From Letharia columbiana (lineage: Eukaryota; Ascomycota; Lecanoromycetes; Lecanorales; Parmeliaceae), in the NCBI RefSeq assembly GCF_014066305.1, contig NW_023501114.1, forward strand, positions 62,001 to 126,000: a stretch of DNA of 64,000 bases. The letters are read 5' to 3'. Every line of letters begins with the position of its first letter. The stretch's first letter is position 1. Both the position numbers and the translations under genes were made by a program. This document shows positions 15,464-55,358 of the stretch, piece by piece. Below the pieces are notes generated by a model. That model saw only the letters and a program-made list of their open reading frames with translations, was not told the DNA's origin and made no database searches.

Positions 15464-17252
15464 CTACGCAAACATATCATCAGTACCTGGGTCGTCGCTG
15501 GACACTGTTGGTGTCGTCCAGATATGCATCCCGCTGGTAATGCTGCTTTGCTCTTGTTGCACATTGAGGCCGGTGTATTGGTCTGCTGCAGATGAACTTT
15601 TCTGGAAAGGATCCGATAGCCAAGGATCTTGCATTAAGCTACTGCCATCGTCCGAAGAGGAAGCTGGGAAGGTACCGTAGTCGTAGGTGGCCGTCGGAAC
15701 CCCGCCCAATGCCGAGACACCATGATGAAGGGTGTCGGCGGGTGCTACAAACTGAAACTGGTCGTGTTCCGAGCTCGGCTCATATGCTCCTTCCGTGATG
15801 GAACCATAGCCGCTTGTCGGCACGTTAGCACTCGATCCTATTGCTCCATGAATCGGTGCAAAGCCAAGCGGCTTGTAGTCGTTGAGCAAATGCCAATTGG
15901 ACTGGCGCGCGTTGTACGCTGCTTTCGCGAGAGCTGCCGCATGCTTTGTATCGGATGGCCCTATTTCGAGATCGTGCTGCAAACCTTTCACAACATGCCT
16001 TTCCCAGATGATTTTTGAAGACTCCCAGCCCAGTAGGGAATCTAGTTGAGCTTTCCAGGCACTCGCCATTCTTGGTTGTAACAACAAGCCTTCTATTACT
16101 TTGGTAGTGTCCCACTCATCAAGTGTTTGACCGCGCTCGAAATGCGTTGCGACATGCTTGAGACGATCTCCAAAGGTGTGAACCAGGTAACCACAGAAGC
16201 CACATGACCACGCTTGCTTCTTGGTGGTTTCTTTCCACTTATCCGCTATGGCTCTACCTTGGGCCTTCCCCTGAACGTCGTGTAATTTCTTCAAATGTTC
16301 GACCAAGTCAGCCCTTCTCTTACAAAAGAACGAGCCTGGGACTCCCTTTCCACATATCTGGATCTTGTGCGCGCCAAGATGCTTTTCGCTTGGGTTCGAT
16401 ATTCCGCAAAGGATACATTTGGTGCCGCCCTCAGTCTTTTCTAATGGGCCCCCAAGCATACAGACATATGTATCCACATGCTCCTTCTCGTGTTTCTTCC
16501 AGTCCGAGAGATTCTTGTAAGGGCGCCGGATCTCGCAGATAGTGCACCAATAGAGATTGACTGCCTTTGTTGCTTTGCGTGAAGTATTGGTCTTGTCAAA
16601 CGTCTGGTGCTGGTCAAGGTCGGAAGTATTCGGGGTGATTTGATGGGAGCCTTCAATCTGAACGCCATTGGGCGGCGCGCGGACAGATGCGCTACCGCCG
16701 GGAGCGTGCACAGTTCCCTGCAAATGCCCCGAGGAGGGGAGGTACGAGTATGCGAAGCCAGATTCTTGGCCGATAAGGCCCCGCGGGTAATTGCGTTGTT
16801 CAGTGTCGCTTGCTAGTCAGCGTCAGCTCTTTGAAACCTAAAAAATTTCGTAAGTCCTCACAAAGCTTGCGAGCTTGTTCCAACAAGGTCCTGATTTTAT
16901 CATCGGCATAATCTCTCAGTGCCCCGACAGCCAGGACTTGGTCGCTTGAGAGTGAGCCATGGCCAGGAAAATAGTGGAGGCTTGGACTGAGAGACCGCGC
17001 AAGTGTGAGGTACGCGAAAATGATTTTGTCATGCTGATCGAGTAAAATCGTGATGGCCTTCTGCGGCTCCAGACGAGTGGTTGCGGAATTCTGCGCCAAT
17101 GACGGGGAAGGTCTCTCTAGCGCATGAGCTAAGCCTGAAACGGGCCTCTGCAAATCGTCAAAACCCATTATTATTAAGAGCACGAAAGAACAAAGGGCAA
17201 CTTTCGCACAACGCGCACACCTTATTATTGAAATCACACCACAACCACGCAT
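15464..17252 (-). CDS. C2H2-type zinc-finger protein, paralog 2
   Basis: Two exons: 17252-16862 and 16812-15464. The 49-nt intron has a GTGAGG donor, a GCTGAC branch and a CTAG acceptor, in phase 1. From the ATG at 17252 the product is 579 aa; the ATG at 17168 (551 aa) is also possible and avoids an odd Cys-rich leader. Exon 1 carries the shared block LSSDQVLAVGALRDYADD...LLEQAR. Exon 2 has the best-preserved fingers of the three paralogs: C-x2-C-x14-H-x3-H (residues 220-242), C-x2-C-x8-H-x3-H (263-279), a CKRRADLVEHLKKLH unit, and C-x2-C-x12-H-x3-H (334-354). A conserved DEWDTTKVIEGLLLQPRM segment and a Ser/Gly-rich tail follow. The role is unknown; nucleic-acid binding is inferred from the fingers. 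The gene ends just inside the low-complexity block and seems complete. Confidence 0.78.
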
Positions 17253-27928: not shown

Positions 27929-30900
27929 TCACGTCCAAGCTCTGCCCCCAACATTCAGCCCGAGACCAACGGCGTCGCGGATAGCACTCTCGGCGTTCGC
28001 ACTCGCGATCTCATCGCTCTCTCCAGTTGGGGTGGCGGGTCCTCTATACCCTGAATGCATCAAGCCACCCACATCCCTCTTCCTCTCTCTAACCAACCAC
28101 TCGAGTGCTCTCGCGAAATCGACTGAATTTCCCGTGTCGGTCTCGGCAAGCGCTTTGGCGGCCTTCTTCTTCTCGAAACCCATAGCTACGAGCCTATCGA
28201 CAGCGACATCGACAGGGTCGCGGACTTGAGGGCCAGCAGGCACGACGAGGGCAGAGACGAAGTTTTTGGAGGTGTCAAGGTCGGAAGGAGTTCGAGAGTG
28301 AGCTGACGGGATAGCAGGAACAGGAGGGGCAATACCCATGTCCAGCTTTTCGAGAACGTCAGGGAATTCTGACATGGGTCTGTCCTCTGAAGGCGGCAGA
28401 GCCTTGAAGCCAGGATCGCTGCGCTTGGCGCGGATTTCTGCCGCGTGGCGAGCGCAACGCCAGCGGGCGGCCACGACGTCGTCTATGGGCTGTTTGGAGA
28501 TGGGAGAGGAGGGGTCCGTGATCTTTCCTTTTGAAGACGGGCTGGGCGAGGTAGGATGGCGCTCTGCAATTCTTTCCTGGTAGACGCGGGAGACGGCTTC
28601 TTTGAGGAAGGTGGCGCGGGAAACGGTAGGTGTTGTCCAGGTGGTGTAGCCACGCGAACGGGCGTGGGCAAAGGTCGCAGCTGTGGGTGAGGTGGGCGAG
28701 GTGACGTCCAGGACGGCGGGAGGAGCGAGAGTGAGGAGGTGGTAGGTCCATTCCTCTGTCGATGGTGTTAGCAAAGGTCTGACGGTAGGGAAGGGAGGCA
28801 CGTACCAAGCACTGAATCTTCCTGTTCGACATCACCAGTGATGATGTCTGCCTTGTCGAAGATTCCATACTCCCTCGCCTCTTGGCGCTTGCCCTGGAAC
28901 CCGCGGACGAGAACGCCCAGGCAGGTCCAGATCTCTGTCATATCGTAGAGGTCCTCCGCTGTCAGTCCACCCACATTGCCTTTGCCGAATGTTGGCGGCG
29001 AGTTGTAGAGAACACTATTCCTGTTCACGTCGGCACCGAACTCCATGGTGTTGGCAGTCCGTCGTTGATGCTTGGCCATGGTGCCTCCCCTTAGCCAATC
29101 CATCTGACCAACGATGTCATCGCCTCGGTTTGATCCACATCCGAACACCTGGCAGAAGGTCCACACACGCCAAAAAGCATCGTCGATCTGGGAGGCTCGT
29201 TCAGTCTCACCGCCTGCGAGTGCGGTGATGGTGTCAGCACGAAGGAATGATTCGCAATGTATCAAAATCATTGACTTGAGAGCGATCATGGTGTACATGT
29301 CCCTCATGTAGTGTTGTAGATAGAGAGAAGGCGAGTATTCAAGCAACTTTGGAAGAGCGTTATCACCGCTTTCTAACCCAGGATAGGGTGGGCTCATTTC
29401 GCGAAGCTCCCAAGCAGCTGGAGACATGCCGTAAAGCGCATTCTTCATCAAGGGAAGCTCGTGTCGCTTGAAGGTGCGGTAGAATCCCCTGCTGACTGTA
29501 GCAGTAGCGAAGAGATCTTGCAGGTTGTCAAGGCTTTCCAAGATGCGTAGAAGGACTACCTCAGCTGCATCGGCGGAGATGTCACGTTCGACGTCTTCTA
29601 CAAAGAAAGACTGTCGACTTCTGATCGTCAATCCTGGAGATGGGAGGCTGGCATAGATATCTGGAATCTCTGACATCGCAATGGACGCAAGGGATCGTGG
29701 TCTCTCAGTCATTACAATAGAAGCCATTGACCGGCGTCGTTGGGGCGACTCGTCCTGGGCAGCCCGCCTCTGAAGGGGGTGGATGTTGCTTTCGTCATTC
29801 TCGTCTATGGGCGCATCAAGGCCGATCGCGATGGTGACCTGAGATTCCTGAAATTCCTCGACTGGCTTTAAGTAGATGGCGGGCGCAGTCAGTTCAGTCT
29901 GCGCGTTGCTACTGTTCTCTGGAGTTGTCGATGGCAGTATCGTGTCAGGAGTCGCGTCATCGATTTGTGTCTGTAGTGGCCTATTAATGGAAGAAGACGA
30001 TTCTAAATGTTCCTTTGTTTTCGGAGCGAAGGCCGCGAACTGTTCAGAATCATTGTTGTTCTTGGGGCTTAGTAACTCCAACCTCGCTCGAACTTCTTCA
30101 TAAGCGTGATCTGGGATGGAAGAAATGTCGGTCTCGGGGGTGCTAGAATCCTCTCTTGACATGGTCGGGCTTGAAGAATCGCCGTCATACATAGTCTGGG
30201 GAGATTCGCTAGAGCTCCAGTTAGATTCCGAGCTGCTTTCCCTCGCCATTTGAGTCGCAGGTTTGCCAAGAATCTTGTCGGCTTTTGCGGTCGATCCCAC
30301 TGCCGGCGCGGAAATGCGGCGACGTAGGCCACTCCTGCTGCTGTCATCGGAATCCCACTTTGATGAGTCTCCACGCATCTGCATGGCAACGTGGGTTGCA
30401 CTCTTCTTCTGTAATCGCTTCCGGCTGCTGATACTTCCATCGCTCAGTTTCAGCGACGATGGCGGATGAGGTGCGTGTCGTGATGGAACCATCGTGTTGG
30501 GTCCACGACTTATTTGCAGAGGGTCATGTGCCATAGGCATCATGTTTGGATGTTGCATTGTAGGCTCTTCACTGATGGTGCCTAAATGAGCTTCCAACTC
30601 CGCCTCAGCCTGACTCAGCGAGGGTTCGGGTTGGTACTCGAATCCTGCCTGGACGTTGGGACTCGTCTTTGTGAAGGCAGCGTCAAGAGCGTCGAGGTCG
30701 GCGGGAGTATATTTCGAGCGCAAGGAGGACATTCGAGATGGAAACTGTGACGGCGTCTCATACATAGACGACCGTGAAAATGTGAGAGGCGAGGGCACCT
30801 TTCGCTTTCCCTTCATGCTGCCGGCCCGAGAGTATGCAACATTCAGGGGCGCTACTTCTGCTCCTGGCTCCGGTGGTAATGGCTTGTTCATGTCGACAGA

Positions 30901-51758: not shown

Positions 51759-51765
51759 TATATAA
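51759..51765 (+). promoter_or_regulatory. TATA-like element upstream of tRNA-Lys
   Basis: TATATAA (51759-51765) lies about 30 bp before the tRNA 5' end. That is the position where upstream TATA boxes help TFIIIB placement in some fungi. It may matter here because the internal A-box is split by an insertion. Confidence 0.45.
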
Positions 51766-51794
51766 TTTAAGATAGTCGCAAATTAAAATTGGAT

Positions 51795-51929
51795 GCCCGG
51801 GTGGCACAATGTAAATTGCCCTTTCTAGTTTCTTCTGATGCCGGTACTAACTATTTCAGTGGCTAGCGCGTGAGACTTTTACCACAATGTACAATCTCAA
51901 GGTTGAGGGTTCGAGCCCCTCCTCGGGCG
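51795..51929 (+). tRNA. tRNA-Lys(UUU) with two interruptions
   Basis: The acceptor stem GCCCGGG (51795-51801) pairs with CTCGGGC (51922-51928), with discriminator G at 51929. The T-arm is GAGGG-TTCGAGC-CCCTC (51905-51921). The anticodon stem is TGAGA (51871-51875) with TCTCA (51895-51899). The loop reads CTTTTA...A, so the anticodon is UUU (lysine). A 12-nt intron (51882-51893) sits at the canonical place one base 3' of the anticodon. The D-arm is interrupted at 51811-51859. With both insertions removed the D-arm is GCAC-AATTGGCTA-GCGC (one A-C mismatch), with the conserved A14, G18, G19 and A21, and the mature RNA is 74 nt. A T7 terminator follows. It could be a functional gene with an unusual second intron, or a disrupted copy. 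Confidence 0.82.
51811..51859 (+). other. Spliceosomal-like intron inside the tRNA D-loop
   Basis: This 49-nt insertion begins GTAAAT, contains the perfect branch-site sequence TACTAAC (51845-51851) and ends TTTCAG eight bases later. Its length and signals match the mRNA introns of this window (48-54 nt). It splits the A-box (TGGCACAAT/TGG). No obvious bulge-helix-bulge of the tRNA-endonuclease type was found at its borders. Confidence 0.6.
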
Positions 51930-51934
51930 ACAAA

Positions 51935-51941
51935 TTTTTTT
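51935..51941 (+). terminator. Pol III terminator of tRNA-Lys
   Basis: A run of seven T five bases after the discriminator base, on the coding strand, as expected for RNA polymerase III termination. Confidence 0.8.
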
Positions 51942-52771: not shown

Positions 52772-55358
52772 ATGGCAACGATCACAATTCCTTCCCCGTC
52801 AGCTTTCCTTCGATCCCCCGGCAGCACACCTGCGCCCACGCACACGGCCAAGGTCTCCGTCAAGGCTTCTTCCAAAAAGAAGTCAGCGGTGGCAAAGCAC
52901 AGTCGCAAGTCTGCAACCCACGCAAATGCTCATTCGAAGCCTAAACAAACAAAGAGTCGCGATGGCAAGTGTTCCAGCAGCACCTTGGTCTTATCTTAGC
53001 TGTACAGGTTCTCCAACCGCTAACAGTCGCCATAGGATGTAGGACCTGCAAGGAAAAACGCTTGAAGTGTGACGAAACCAAGCCCGTCTGCCAACAATGC
53101 GATAAGAAGGGTGTCCAGTGCGAGGGATATGAAAAGGTTCTGAAATGGCGCCCTCAAGAGGATACGTTCAGGACCAAGCCTACATCCCCAAGGCCAAGAA
53201 AGAGTAGGTTGTGCAGCTCCTTAGCGTCGCGACAATGACTGACAACTTCAGAATCCGTCACCTCAACCAGCTCCCGCTCTCTCCTGCCTCCCGTCCCCTT
53301 TCTACCGCCAGAATCCTCCGGGTCACCCACCAGCAATGACTTCCCACCCGTCCTCCCCGACTATCCCACACCACCACAGTCTGCAGTCTCTCTCGTCTCC
53401 CAGCTTGTGCATACATCGCATCCCGAGCCGCCCATCCTCCCCTTCCAAACTGCACACGCTCACGAGGAGTTTTCTATGTTGCAAAACCGTCTGAAGACAG
53501 AGAACAGCTTTCCTAGCTCCACACCCAGTCTCATCAACGATGGCTTCGATGATGAAGTACCTCCTCAATCGGCAACGACAGCACCATCAACTATTTGGTC
53601 CGACAACTCTCCCAAGCTGGAGAATCTCTTACTACCTGGCACAGATCTCAACGCTAGGCCTTCTGACTACATGGACTACGAACCTACACACATATACCGA
53701 CCCAGCGGCTTTCCGAGCACTCCCCGCTTACAGACCTATCCATCCTCAGGTTCAGAGGACGACGTGGAAGAGATCATGCGAGAGCCGGAGCCCCCAGATG
53801 CTTGGGCCATGGCATTCCCATCACCAGTATTCTCCGACTCTTCCTCCTCGTCCGACGGCTTCCGCTTCGACATGCTCTCTGCAGCCATCTACGGCCAGCC
53901 AAGACTACACCCTGACAGCGAAGAAATGCTCACGCTGCGCTTCGACACCCAAACGTGCGGCATACTTTCAATAAAGGATGGGCCGACCGAGAACCCATGG
54001 AGGATGAAGCTTTGGCCGATGGCGAGAGAGTCGCCGGCGCTACGATATGCTATCAATGCAATGACAGCATTCCACGCGTCGAAGGAGAAGCCGTCTTTAA
54101 GAATCAGGGGTATGCAAGATTTTGGCCAGAGTCTCAAACTTTTGTCAGCTGAGATCCAAGATACACGTATAGACATTTCGCTCGCTACAACACTTGTCTT
54201 GGCGTTCGCTGAGTCCTGGGACCAGCTGATATCTACGGGAATTACGCATCTACGAGGAGCCAAAAAATTGGTCAGTGAGGCACTGATCAACCACAGACAG
54301 GGCTCAATGCACCCTGAAGCCGCGGCGCGGCTTAGTTTTTTATGTAGAACGTGGGTGTATATGGATGTCATCGCTCGCCTGACTTCTCTCGACGGTGATG
54401 AATCCGAAGACTTTGACACCGTTCTCAGCCCTCTGTGCGGACCATCAGCTCCCAATCAAGGCATTGATCCATTGATGGGCTGTGCCAGTACGCTATTTCC
54501 ACTTATCGGTCGTGTTGCGAACCTCATCCGAAAAGTGCGCACGTCGGGAGAGAATTCTTTGCCAATGGTCTCTCAGGCCAGCGAACTAAAAGACTCCATC
54601 GAAAAGTGGGAAGCCCCGGTGATGTTTGAAGCACCAGAAGACCAGTCGACGGAGATCAAACACAGCCAACGAACGGCAGAAGCATACCGTTGGGCCACCC
54701 TTCTGTACCTTCACCAAGCGGTTCCGGAGATTTACTCTGGGTCAGTGACTGAACTAATAGCTGCGATGGCGAAAGAAGTCTTGAACCACCTCGCTAACGT
54801 CCCGCCCACTTCACGAGCGGTCATAATTCACATCTTTCCTCTCTTAGCCGCTAGCTGCGAGGTCATTGGTGCAGAAGACCGCAAATGGGTGGCAGATCGA
54901 TGGGAGGCGATGATGGCACGTATGAATATACAGAACCTCGACAAATGCTGGATCGTCGTCAAGGAAGTCTGGGAGCGTCGCGACAACCGTGAACAAGAGC
55001 GGCGCCGACAACGACATCGAGCTGCTGCTGATCATTTGCTGACAGGTTATATGCCTACCAAATGTATGAAGAGGAAATCAAGCTCTGGGGATGATAACGT
55101 CCATGATGCCAACTCAAATGATGGGAGTACACGTAGAGTAACACAGAACACGAGGCCCTCACCGTCGAGCAGGTCAAGATCTGGCATGCTCCGCAAAGAT
55201 TCGTCAGGTACCGCACCAGGAGGTCTCGATTACGAATTGACGGTCCGTGGGGACTTGCACTGGGCCGGTGTGATGAAGGATTGGAAGTGGGAAGGTGAGT
55301 TGTATAATCTGTGGTATTGCCTATGGATAGCTGACAGAATCCAGTCCTTCTCGGATAG
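52772..55358 (+). CDS. Zn2Cys6 transcription factor
   Basis: Start at ATG 52772 (context CCCATGG). A Ser/Lys-rich leader is followed by an intron ending at 53035 (CTAAC branch, CATAG); its donor could not be fixed (candidates 52956, 52971). The next exon (53036-53203) encodes the zinc cluster C-x2-C-x6-C-x6-C-x2-C-x6-C (CRTCKEKRLKCDETKPVCQQ...). Intron 53204-53251 (GTAGGT, CTGAC, TTCAG) is phase 1. The main exon, 53252-55294, has a Pro/Ser-rich linker and a fungal-specific transcription factor domain (TQTCGILSIKDG; NPWRMKLWPMARESPALRYA; HLRGAKKLVSEAL). A last intron, 55295-55344 (GTGAGT, CTGAC, CCAG), leaves only VLLG before the stop at 55356-55358. Such proteins are nuclear activators binding CGG half-sites. 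The target genes cannot be told from context. Confidence 0.85.

Follow-up and report, generated by a model that had tools for sequence, protein, structure and literature searches.

Results

A lysine tRNA gene with two inserts

The stretch of DNA analysed here (the window) comprises 64,000 nucleotides (nt) of contig NW_023501114.1 of the lichen-forming ascomycete Letharia columbiana. On its forward strand lies a gene for the lysine transfer RNA (tRNA) with anticodon UUU (Lys-UUU; 51795..51929, 135 nt), whose D loop is interrupted by a 49-nt insert bearing the signals of a spliceosomal intron. Exon 1 (51795..51810) covers positions 1-16 of the tRNA, that is, the 5' strand of the acceptor stem, T8 and G9, the 5' strand of the D stem, and A14, A15 and T16; here and below, tRNA position numbers are our own assignments on the standard cloverleaf. 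The insert (51811..51859) falls between positions 16 and 17 (16/17), within the A-box region, and reads GTAAAT..TACTAAC..TATTTCAG, ending in TTTCAG. Its branch-site motif TACTAAC occupies 51845..51851, and the putative branch A, at 51850, is 9 nt from the intron end. Exon 2 (51860..51881, positions 17-37) contributes G18 and G19, the 3' strand of the D stem and the anticodon TTT at 34-36. It is followed at 37/38 by a canonical 12-nt intron (CCACAATGTACA, 51882..51893), the expected substrate of the tRNA splicing endonuclease, and by exon 3 (51894..51929, positions 38-73), which carries the 3' strand of the anticodon stem, the variable loop, the T arm, the 3' strand of the acceptor stem and G73. 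The B box GGTTCGAGCCC lies at 51908..51918 (C79:113908-113918 in our listing of B-box patterns), a TATA-like element TATATAAT at 51759..51766, 36 to 29 nt upstream of the mature 5' end, and a run of seven Ts resembling a terminator of RNA polymerase III (Pol III), as read from the sequence, at 51935..51941. All these features are on the plus strand.

The gene, its two introns and the three signals of the D-loop insert are as a first, sequence-only reading had described them. That reading also held that exact GT..AG removal yields a 74-nt cloverleaf with A14, G18-G19 and A21, and the joined exons bear this out. ARAGORN names them tRNA-Lys(ttt), with cloverleaf, UUU anticodon and conserved bases restored; the acceptor (7/7, one G-U), anticodon (5/5) and T (5/5) stems pair fully and the D stem at 3/4, and the predicted junction across the D-loop intron is GGCACAAT/TGGCTAGC. 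In the uncut window, neither ARAGORN with introns disallowed nor Rfam at its gathering score found a tRNA, and a relaxed Rfam run gave a partial tRNA match of 21.2 bits starting at 51858. TACTAAC occurs nine times on the two strands of the window, and only the copy in the Lys-UUU intron has GTRA[AGT] 24-45 nt upstream together with YAG no more than 15 nt downstream. The exact 3' part of the gene had no match in the genome-contig and viral-contig collections scanned.

Fifteen inserts in ten nuclear tRNA genes

The assembly searched amounts to 52.2 Mb in 161 contigs, the window being part of contig C79. Searching for a branch motif combined with YAG and a B box turned up six places, versus three for the reversed control: the window gene, two more insert-bearing tRNA genes and three apparent copies of one repeat. 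Other genes came from Rfam tRNA hits, from B-box places inspected singly and from complete listings of two B-box classes, GGTTCGANCCC (73 places) and GGTTCGAMTCC (70 places); 13 of these 143 places are on mitochondrial-looking contigs and three (C105, C143, C156) were left unread, as were four low-scoring Rfam places. Three Rfam places that looked mitochondrial or doubtful (L027, L038, L041) were excluded. Since the survey demanded a fully paired T stem and viewed roughly 290-500 nt upstream, imperfect or longer genes could be missed, and it was blind to genes with other B boxes or T-arm introns. From all sources, 22 nuclear tRNA genes were modelled, ten with spliceosomal-type inserts and twelve without. 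The two complete B-box classes hold 13 nuclear tRNA genes, seven of which (six of twelve if the window gene is set aside) carry such inserts, namely Ala-UGC, Arg-UCU, Lys-CUU, Lys-UUU, Leu-AAG, Ser-GCU and Gln-CUG; the genes for Ser-UGA, Glu-UUC, Ile-UAU, Leu-UAG, Leu-CAG and Leu-CAA have none. Two further genes, both lacking such introns, were read by hand: that for Ile-UAU and a leucine-like one whose T stem is unusual (GTGAG/TTTAC; L034, C4:544810-544891). Our guess is that the latter underwent repeat-induced C-to-T mutation.

The ten genes contain 15 inserts: four in Lys-CUU, two each in Gln-CUG and Ala-UGC, and one each in Lys-UUU, Leu-AAG, Thr-AGU, Thr-CGU, Ser-AGA, Ser-GCU and Arg-UCU. 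They interrupt the D arm, the anticodon arm, the variable region and the acceptor stem. The Leu-AAG insert is at 16/17, as in Lys-UUU, that of Arg-UCU at 15/16, that of Thr-CGU at 19/20, directly after the A box, that of Thr-AGU at 43/44, and those of Ser-AGA and Ser-GCU are in the variable arm. In Gln-CUG, inserts at 10/11 and 15/16, the latter with GC-AG ends, flank a 5-nt exon (TGTAG). The Lys-CUU gene is split at 10/11, 17/18, 27/28 and 45/46, with a 7-nt exon (CTCAATC) between the first two inserts and no canonical intron; its predicted junctions are GTTAG/CTCAATC/GGTAGAGCGT/GTGACTC and CACAAG/GTTGTG. The inserts of Ala-UGC, at 32/33 and 70/71, lie on either side of a 17-nt canonical intron, and joining the exons of this gene restores the anticodon loop TTTGCAT, A73 and the G3-U70 pair, an identity element of alanine tRNAs. 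Canonical 37/38 introns are present in eight of the ten genes and are only 7-30 nt long. An intron-like stretch of about 40 nt (GTATGA..GAGCTAAC..CTTCAG), which could be a leader intron or a chance resemblance, stops 2 nt short of the mature 5' end of Ala-UGC (L085/L211, C5 about 624.0-624.2 kb, minus strand).

The sequence-only reading had called for a check for other tRNA-Lys(UUU) genes, several intact ones together with a lack of mature reads from this locus being its mark of a pseudogene. None was found: at BLAST sensitivity across the 161 contigs, the joined exons of the two lysine tRNAs match only C79 and C33, so that no second gene of either kind appears. A pattern of lysine anticodon plus B box occurred at nine places, comprising the window gene, six on mitochondrial-looking contigs and two judged to be chance. 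On the sequence evidence, Lys-UUU would be a working nuclear tRNA gene and is probably the sole copy.

Excision of the inserts restores tRNA structures

An intron-aware model, which allowed introns of 38-76 nt beginning with GT or GC, ending in AG and having a branch motif within the last 45 nt, gave the ten genes scores of 25.5-31.2. Among 570 dinucleotide shuffles treated alike (57 T-arm sites, ten each), three reached 20 and none 22, the maximum being 21.5. A second test considered structure only: each intron was taken in turn from a sequence already freed of the others, and excisions of 40-70 nt were scored exhaustively; it covered all introns but the acceptor-stem one of Ala-UGC. At all 14 introns tested, a GT-AG or GC-AG excision was among those that equalled or outscored the true one. 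For the ten introns outside the variable region, 3-32 excisions did so, among which 0.02-0.23 GT-AG or GC-AG excisions would be expected for each, and the true excision tied the maximum in nine; in Lys-UUU, 19 of 4185 excisions restored the tRNA as well as the true one, with 0.12 of the GT-AG or GC-AG kind expected and one observed. Because the introns had been picked with knowledge of the motifs, these results were not combined into a single P value. Boundaries are fixed by the introns that cut stems (Gln-CUG 10/11, Lys-CUU 10/11 and 27/28, Ala-UGC 70/71). Taken together, the two tests back most of the boundaries, with weaker backing for those of the variable region and of Thr-CGU.

In the joined exons, acceptor stems pair at 7/7 in nine genes and 6/7 in Ala-UGC, anticodon stems at 5/5 in all ten, and D stems at 4/4 in four and 3/4 in six; T stems of 5/5 were required when genes were selected. 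Run without its intron option, ARAGORN called none of the ten uncut genes and all ten sets of joined exons, with the expected anticodons and the names Lys, Leu, Gln, Thr, Thr, Ser, Ser, Arg, Ala and Lys. The option was left off for joined exons because these contain no intron; with it on, most gave no call or odd calls. When introns of 4-120 nt were allowed, six of the ten uncut genes were called, two with a wrong anticodon: Ala-UGC was taken for Ala-CGC, with an intron of 71 nt, and Thr-CGU for Ile. With the spliceosomal-type introns alone removed and introns allowed, eight of ten were called, the two genes lacking a canonical intron giving no call. A boundary-jitter test with ARAGORN was uninformative, since 161 of 289 shifted D-loop excisions were still called tRNA. 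With expectation values (E) of up to 1 allowed, Rfam recognised Ser-GCU and missed Lys-CUU, Gln-CUG and Leu-AAG; its genome search found Thr-AGU and Ser-AGA.

Splice signals and flanking elements

The 15 inserts are 49-58 nt long, 14 with GT-AG and one with GC-AG ends. The 5' site has A as third base in 13, A as fourth in ten, G as fifth in 13 and T as sixth in ten. A branch motif is present in 14: CTNAY with its A 9-18 nt before the intron end in 13, and TTAAT at 10 nt in Thr-CGU. The inserts thus have the ends and, in 13 cases, the fungal branch motif (CTNAY) of U2-type introns; such ends were demanded by the model, not by the structure-only test. The claim that the Lys-UUU insert matches the messenger RNA (mRNA) introns of the window in length and signals holds for the three best-judged junctions, of 48, 49 and 50 nt, among ten candidates, the rest of which are 57-96 nt long; the candidates came from a frame test requiring GT, a branch motif and YAG, and some are alternatives for one place. 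These three putative introns, all frame-based, are at 53204..53251 (plus strand, 48 nt, GTAGGT..CTGAC..TTCAG, at the Fungal_trans_2 reading frame), 16813..16861 (minus strand, 49 nt, GTGAGG..GCTGAC..CTAG) and 28756..28805 (minus strand, 50 nt, GTACGT..GCTAAC..GACAG, with 57- and 80-nt alternatives sharing its 3' site). A looser frame-based set of 15 putative mRNA introns, doubtful cases included, averages 62 nt.

A recent spread of one intron family was considered and rejected, similarity among the tRNA introns and to the 15 putative mRNA introns being within the shuffled range. The best score, 26, paired the first intron of Lys-CUU with a putative mRNA intron that lies in the same locus (95% of the null: 29). 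These two introns, about 1 kb apart, have a 13-mer, ACTGACTTGGTGC, in common at the branch site (mRNA intron at L145, about 1299-1353); the sharing is not significant against shuffles and would fit derivation of the tRNA intron from the nearby mRNA intron.

A run of at least five Ts starts 0-33 nt past the 3' end in all ten intron-bearing genes, versus 5.9% of random 45-nt pieces of the window. A TATA element lies 21-52 nt upstream in nine of the ten and in nine of the twelve comparison tRNA genes, versus 20.5% of random 31-nt pieces. All ten have a B box, which was used to find them. The A box is split in five, Lys-UUU, Leu-AAG, Gln-CUG, Arg-UCU and Lys-CUU, at 10/11, 15/16, 16/17 or 17/18.

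Other features of the window and the assembly

Reading frames in the window encode a GH3 protein and a Fungal_trans_2 factor. The best named matches of the GH3 protein are from Cornicularia normoerica (90%) and Imshaugia aleurites (89%), both members of the Parmeliaceae, and the other names listed are lichen fungi. Elsewhere in the assembly, a stretch resembling the 5' half of a tRNA (..GCATAGTCTAACGGTTAGGACGGTGTGAGTATCC..) lies directly upstream of a tRNA-His gene (L029, minus strand), with no 3' half recognisable by eye. An interspersed repeat with a T-arm-like core, TTAGGTTCGATTCCTAATGGCGCTGGTACAATGG, explains many of the GGTTCGATTCC matches inspected (e.g. L045, L046, L058, L059, L090). 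Contigs C94 and C110 look mitochondrial and are rich in intronless tRNA genes; the tRNA pattern of C94 repeats at a distance of about 90.5 kb, which would fit a circular genome of this length assembled past its start.

Discussion

The sequence-only reading suggested that a spliceosome may process a tRNA precursor at this locus, and the wider set of genes supports the idea: the 15 inserts share length, 5' site, 3' site and, in 14 cases, the branch motif, and their removal restores cloverleaves even where an intron cuts a stem. In our view the ten genes are very probably transcribed by Pol III, with their spliceosomal-type introns removed by a U2-type spliceosome and their products functional. 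As several tRNA genes, including the only two lysine genes found, are interrupted, the cell probably needs its mRNA splicing machinery to make tRNAs. Most likely, a TATA element would assist Pol III in starting at a promoter whose B box is intact and whose A box is split in five genes, and the spliceosome would then recognise the short introns by their own signals, as it would fungal mRNA introns. In Lys-UUU, the ordinary U2-type machinery would remove the D-loop intron and the tRNA splicing endonuclease the 37/38 intron. According to a passage of PMC4090602 that deals with Sen54 and the D arm, this endonuclease takes its position from the body of the tRNA, so that its step would presumably follow joining of the D arm. 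At least nine other tRNA genes would probably be handled likewise, with 14 further spliceosomal-type introns and up to four per gene.

The introns might instead be removed from RNA polymerase II (Pol II) transcripts that read through the tRNA genes. Spliceosomes normally act on Pol II transcripts, and a split A box in half of the genes would fit such an origin. This seems unlikely to us given the T run behind every one of the ten and the upstream TATA elements, which are much like those of ordinary tRNA genes here; moreover, the U6 RNA of fission yeast, a Pol III transcript, does undergo splicing (as described in part of PMC10484740). The polymerase aside, the machine could be another. Organisms such as Cyanidioschyzon, nucleomorphs and archaea have non-canonical tRNA introns (passages in PMC4090602), and the inserts could be endonuclease-type introns cut in the same way at unusual positions. 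The D-loop insert of Lys-UUU does show three of four pairs in the register tested, a strict one with a 4-bp helix between two 3-nt bulges. Conserved bulge-helix-bulge pairing, in related species with the same insertion, had been named in the sequence-only reading as the mark of an endonuclease intron. Over the 15 inserts, the helix has 1-3 of four pairs (mean 1.67, with about 1.5 expected at random by simple arithmetic counting G-U) and none has four. Pairing in this register being near chance, a bulge-helix-bulge origin was rejected. The shared length, GTAAGT-like start, branch motif and AG end also speak against endonuclease cutting, as does the shortness of the eight 37/38 introns in the same genes, and we regard it as very improbable. 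Self-splicing was likewise rejected, an insert of 49-58 nt being too short for a group I or II catalytic core; no family matched at gathering score in the window, and no intron family at E up to 1 at five of the other loci.

A different explanation is that the interrupted genes are pseudogenes and that intact copies supply the tRNAs. The assembly may be incomplete; one conserved 18S pattern found no ribosomal DNA (rDNA) in it. Yet both lysine genes are interrupted and have no other match in 52.2 Mb, uniqueness having been tested for lysine only. All ten genes keep a B box and a T-run terminator, and their stems are paired save for one mismatch each in Lys-UUU and Ala-UGC and the D stems at 3/4. 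Such introns are carried, moreover, by seven of the 13 nuclear genes in the two complete B-box classes, or by six of twelve without the window gene. We consider this explanation, too, highly improbable.

Several observations weigh against spliceosomal removal from working genes, or against its details. Joined Lys-UUU has an A12-C23 mismatch in the D stem, absent from the sequence-only account, and joined Ala-UGC a T6-T67 mismatch in the acceptor stem. In Thr-CGU, the GT-AG excision is outscored by others (30.5 vs 34.0). The variable-region introns (Thr-AGU, Ser-AGA, Ser-GCU and the fourth of Lys-CUU) are loosely bounded, 108-195 excisions tying and 0.8-1.2 of the GT-AG or GC-AG kind being expected by chance, and Lys-CUU still scores 30.5 with its fourth intron retained, compared with 35.0 when it is removed. 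The Ser-AGA intron has only TTGAC near its 3' site and no CTNAY-type motif. With its canonical intron retained and introns allowed, Leu-AAG is named Ile(tat) by ARAGORN. Nor are the intron counts free of selection, because the model required the motifs and the genes were partly found by them. Finally, Pol III transcription would lead one to expect no T5 runs within the introns, but the lack observed falls short of significance (P 0.13-0.22), and selection against such runs was discarded on that account.

Spliceosomal introns in RNA genes have precedents. Nuclear rDNA of lichen-forming ascomycetes contains them (Bhattacharya et al. 2000, cited in passages of PMC6652019 and PMC8527467), and a 57-bp rDNA intron of Cladonia grayi is removed when placed in yeast rDNA (as related in part of PMC8527467). 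Like the inserts described here, these are short spliceosomal introns of lichen fungi in structural RNA genes that Pol II does not transcribe; unlike them, they are in ribosomal RNA (rRNA) from multicopy genes transcribed by Pol I, whereas here the genes are for tRNAs, the flanks are of Pol III type and exons are down to 5 nt long. An mRNA-type intron is also found in the U6 small nuclear RNA of fission yeast (Tani and Ohshima 1989, 1991, cited in a passage of PMC10484740). This would be the same situation of a spliceosomal intron in a Pol III transcript. U6 is, however, an RNA of the spliceosome itself, and its intron, near the catalytic nucleotides, is thought in that passage of PMC10484740 to come from reverse splicing; here we deal with tRNAs, with up to four introns per gene in four regions of the molecule.

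Introns proper to tRNA genes are of another sort. In eukaryotes, protein enzymes remove them and neither the spliceosome nor GT-AG motifs play a part (as stated in part of PMC13149111), and eukaryotic tRNA genes have been described as limited to one intron (a passage in PMC8450103). Introns of this kind are found at 37/38 in most of the genes studied here; they occupy that single position, unlike the inserts. Archaea, nucleomorphs and Cyanidioschyzon merolae have tRNA introns in the D arm, T arm and anticodon stem, some genes with two or three. Passages of PMC4090602, from which this comes, attribute them to the splicing endonuclease and bulge-helix-bulge-type sites, and call the cutting of very short nucleomorph introns (3-24 nt in Guillardia) unknown. 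They resemble our inserts in their D-arm and anticodon-stem positions and in being multiple. They are not known to have GT-AG ends or branch motifs.

Searches of an open-access library turned up no title or abstract on spliceosomal introns in tRNA genes; subscription literature was mostly outside their scope, and an earlier description is possible. The place of these inserts, the signals they carry and the machine that presumably removes them all set them apart from known tRNA introns, so that tRNA genes holding one to four spliceosomal-type introns each would, as a set, be new. Ectopic spliceosomal introns in RNA genes are already known from lichen rDNA and U6, and, counted as one kind, the tRNA case would join them. 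Introns of tRNAs have been regarded as a class of their own, sharing a single position and removed by protein enzymes, and this genome would cross that line. It raises the questions of how a Pol III transcript comes into contact with the spliceosome, how exons as short as 5 and 7 nt can be joined while the tRNA folds, by what means transcription factors locate a split A box and how RNA genes gain introns. Reverse splicing should be testable here because tRNA structure narrows the intron boundaries. On the practical side, such genes can go unfound or be wrongly named in standard tRNA searches, as happened with Rfam and ARAGORN. We think it likely that the spliceosome is an obligatory tRNA-maturation machine in this fungus, with all nuclear lysine decoding and several other isoacceptors relying on it to take up to four introns out of Pol III genes. 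If so, most such transcripts would also pass through the classical tRNA endonuclease, and the supply of tRNA, like that of rRNA in lichens, may be tied to splicing capacity.
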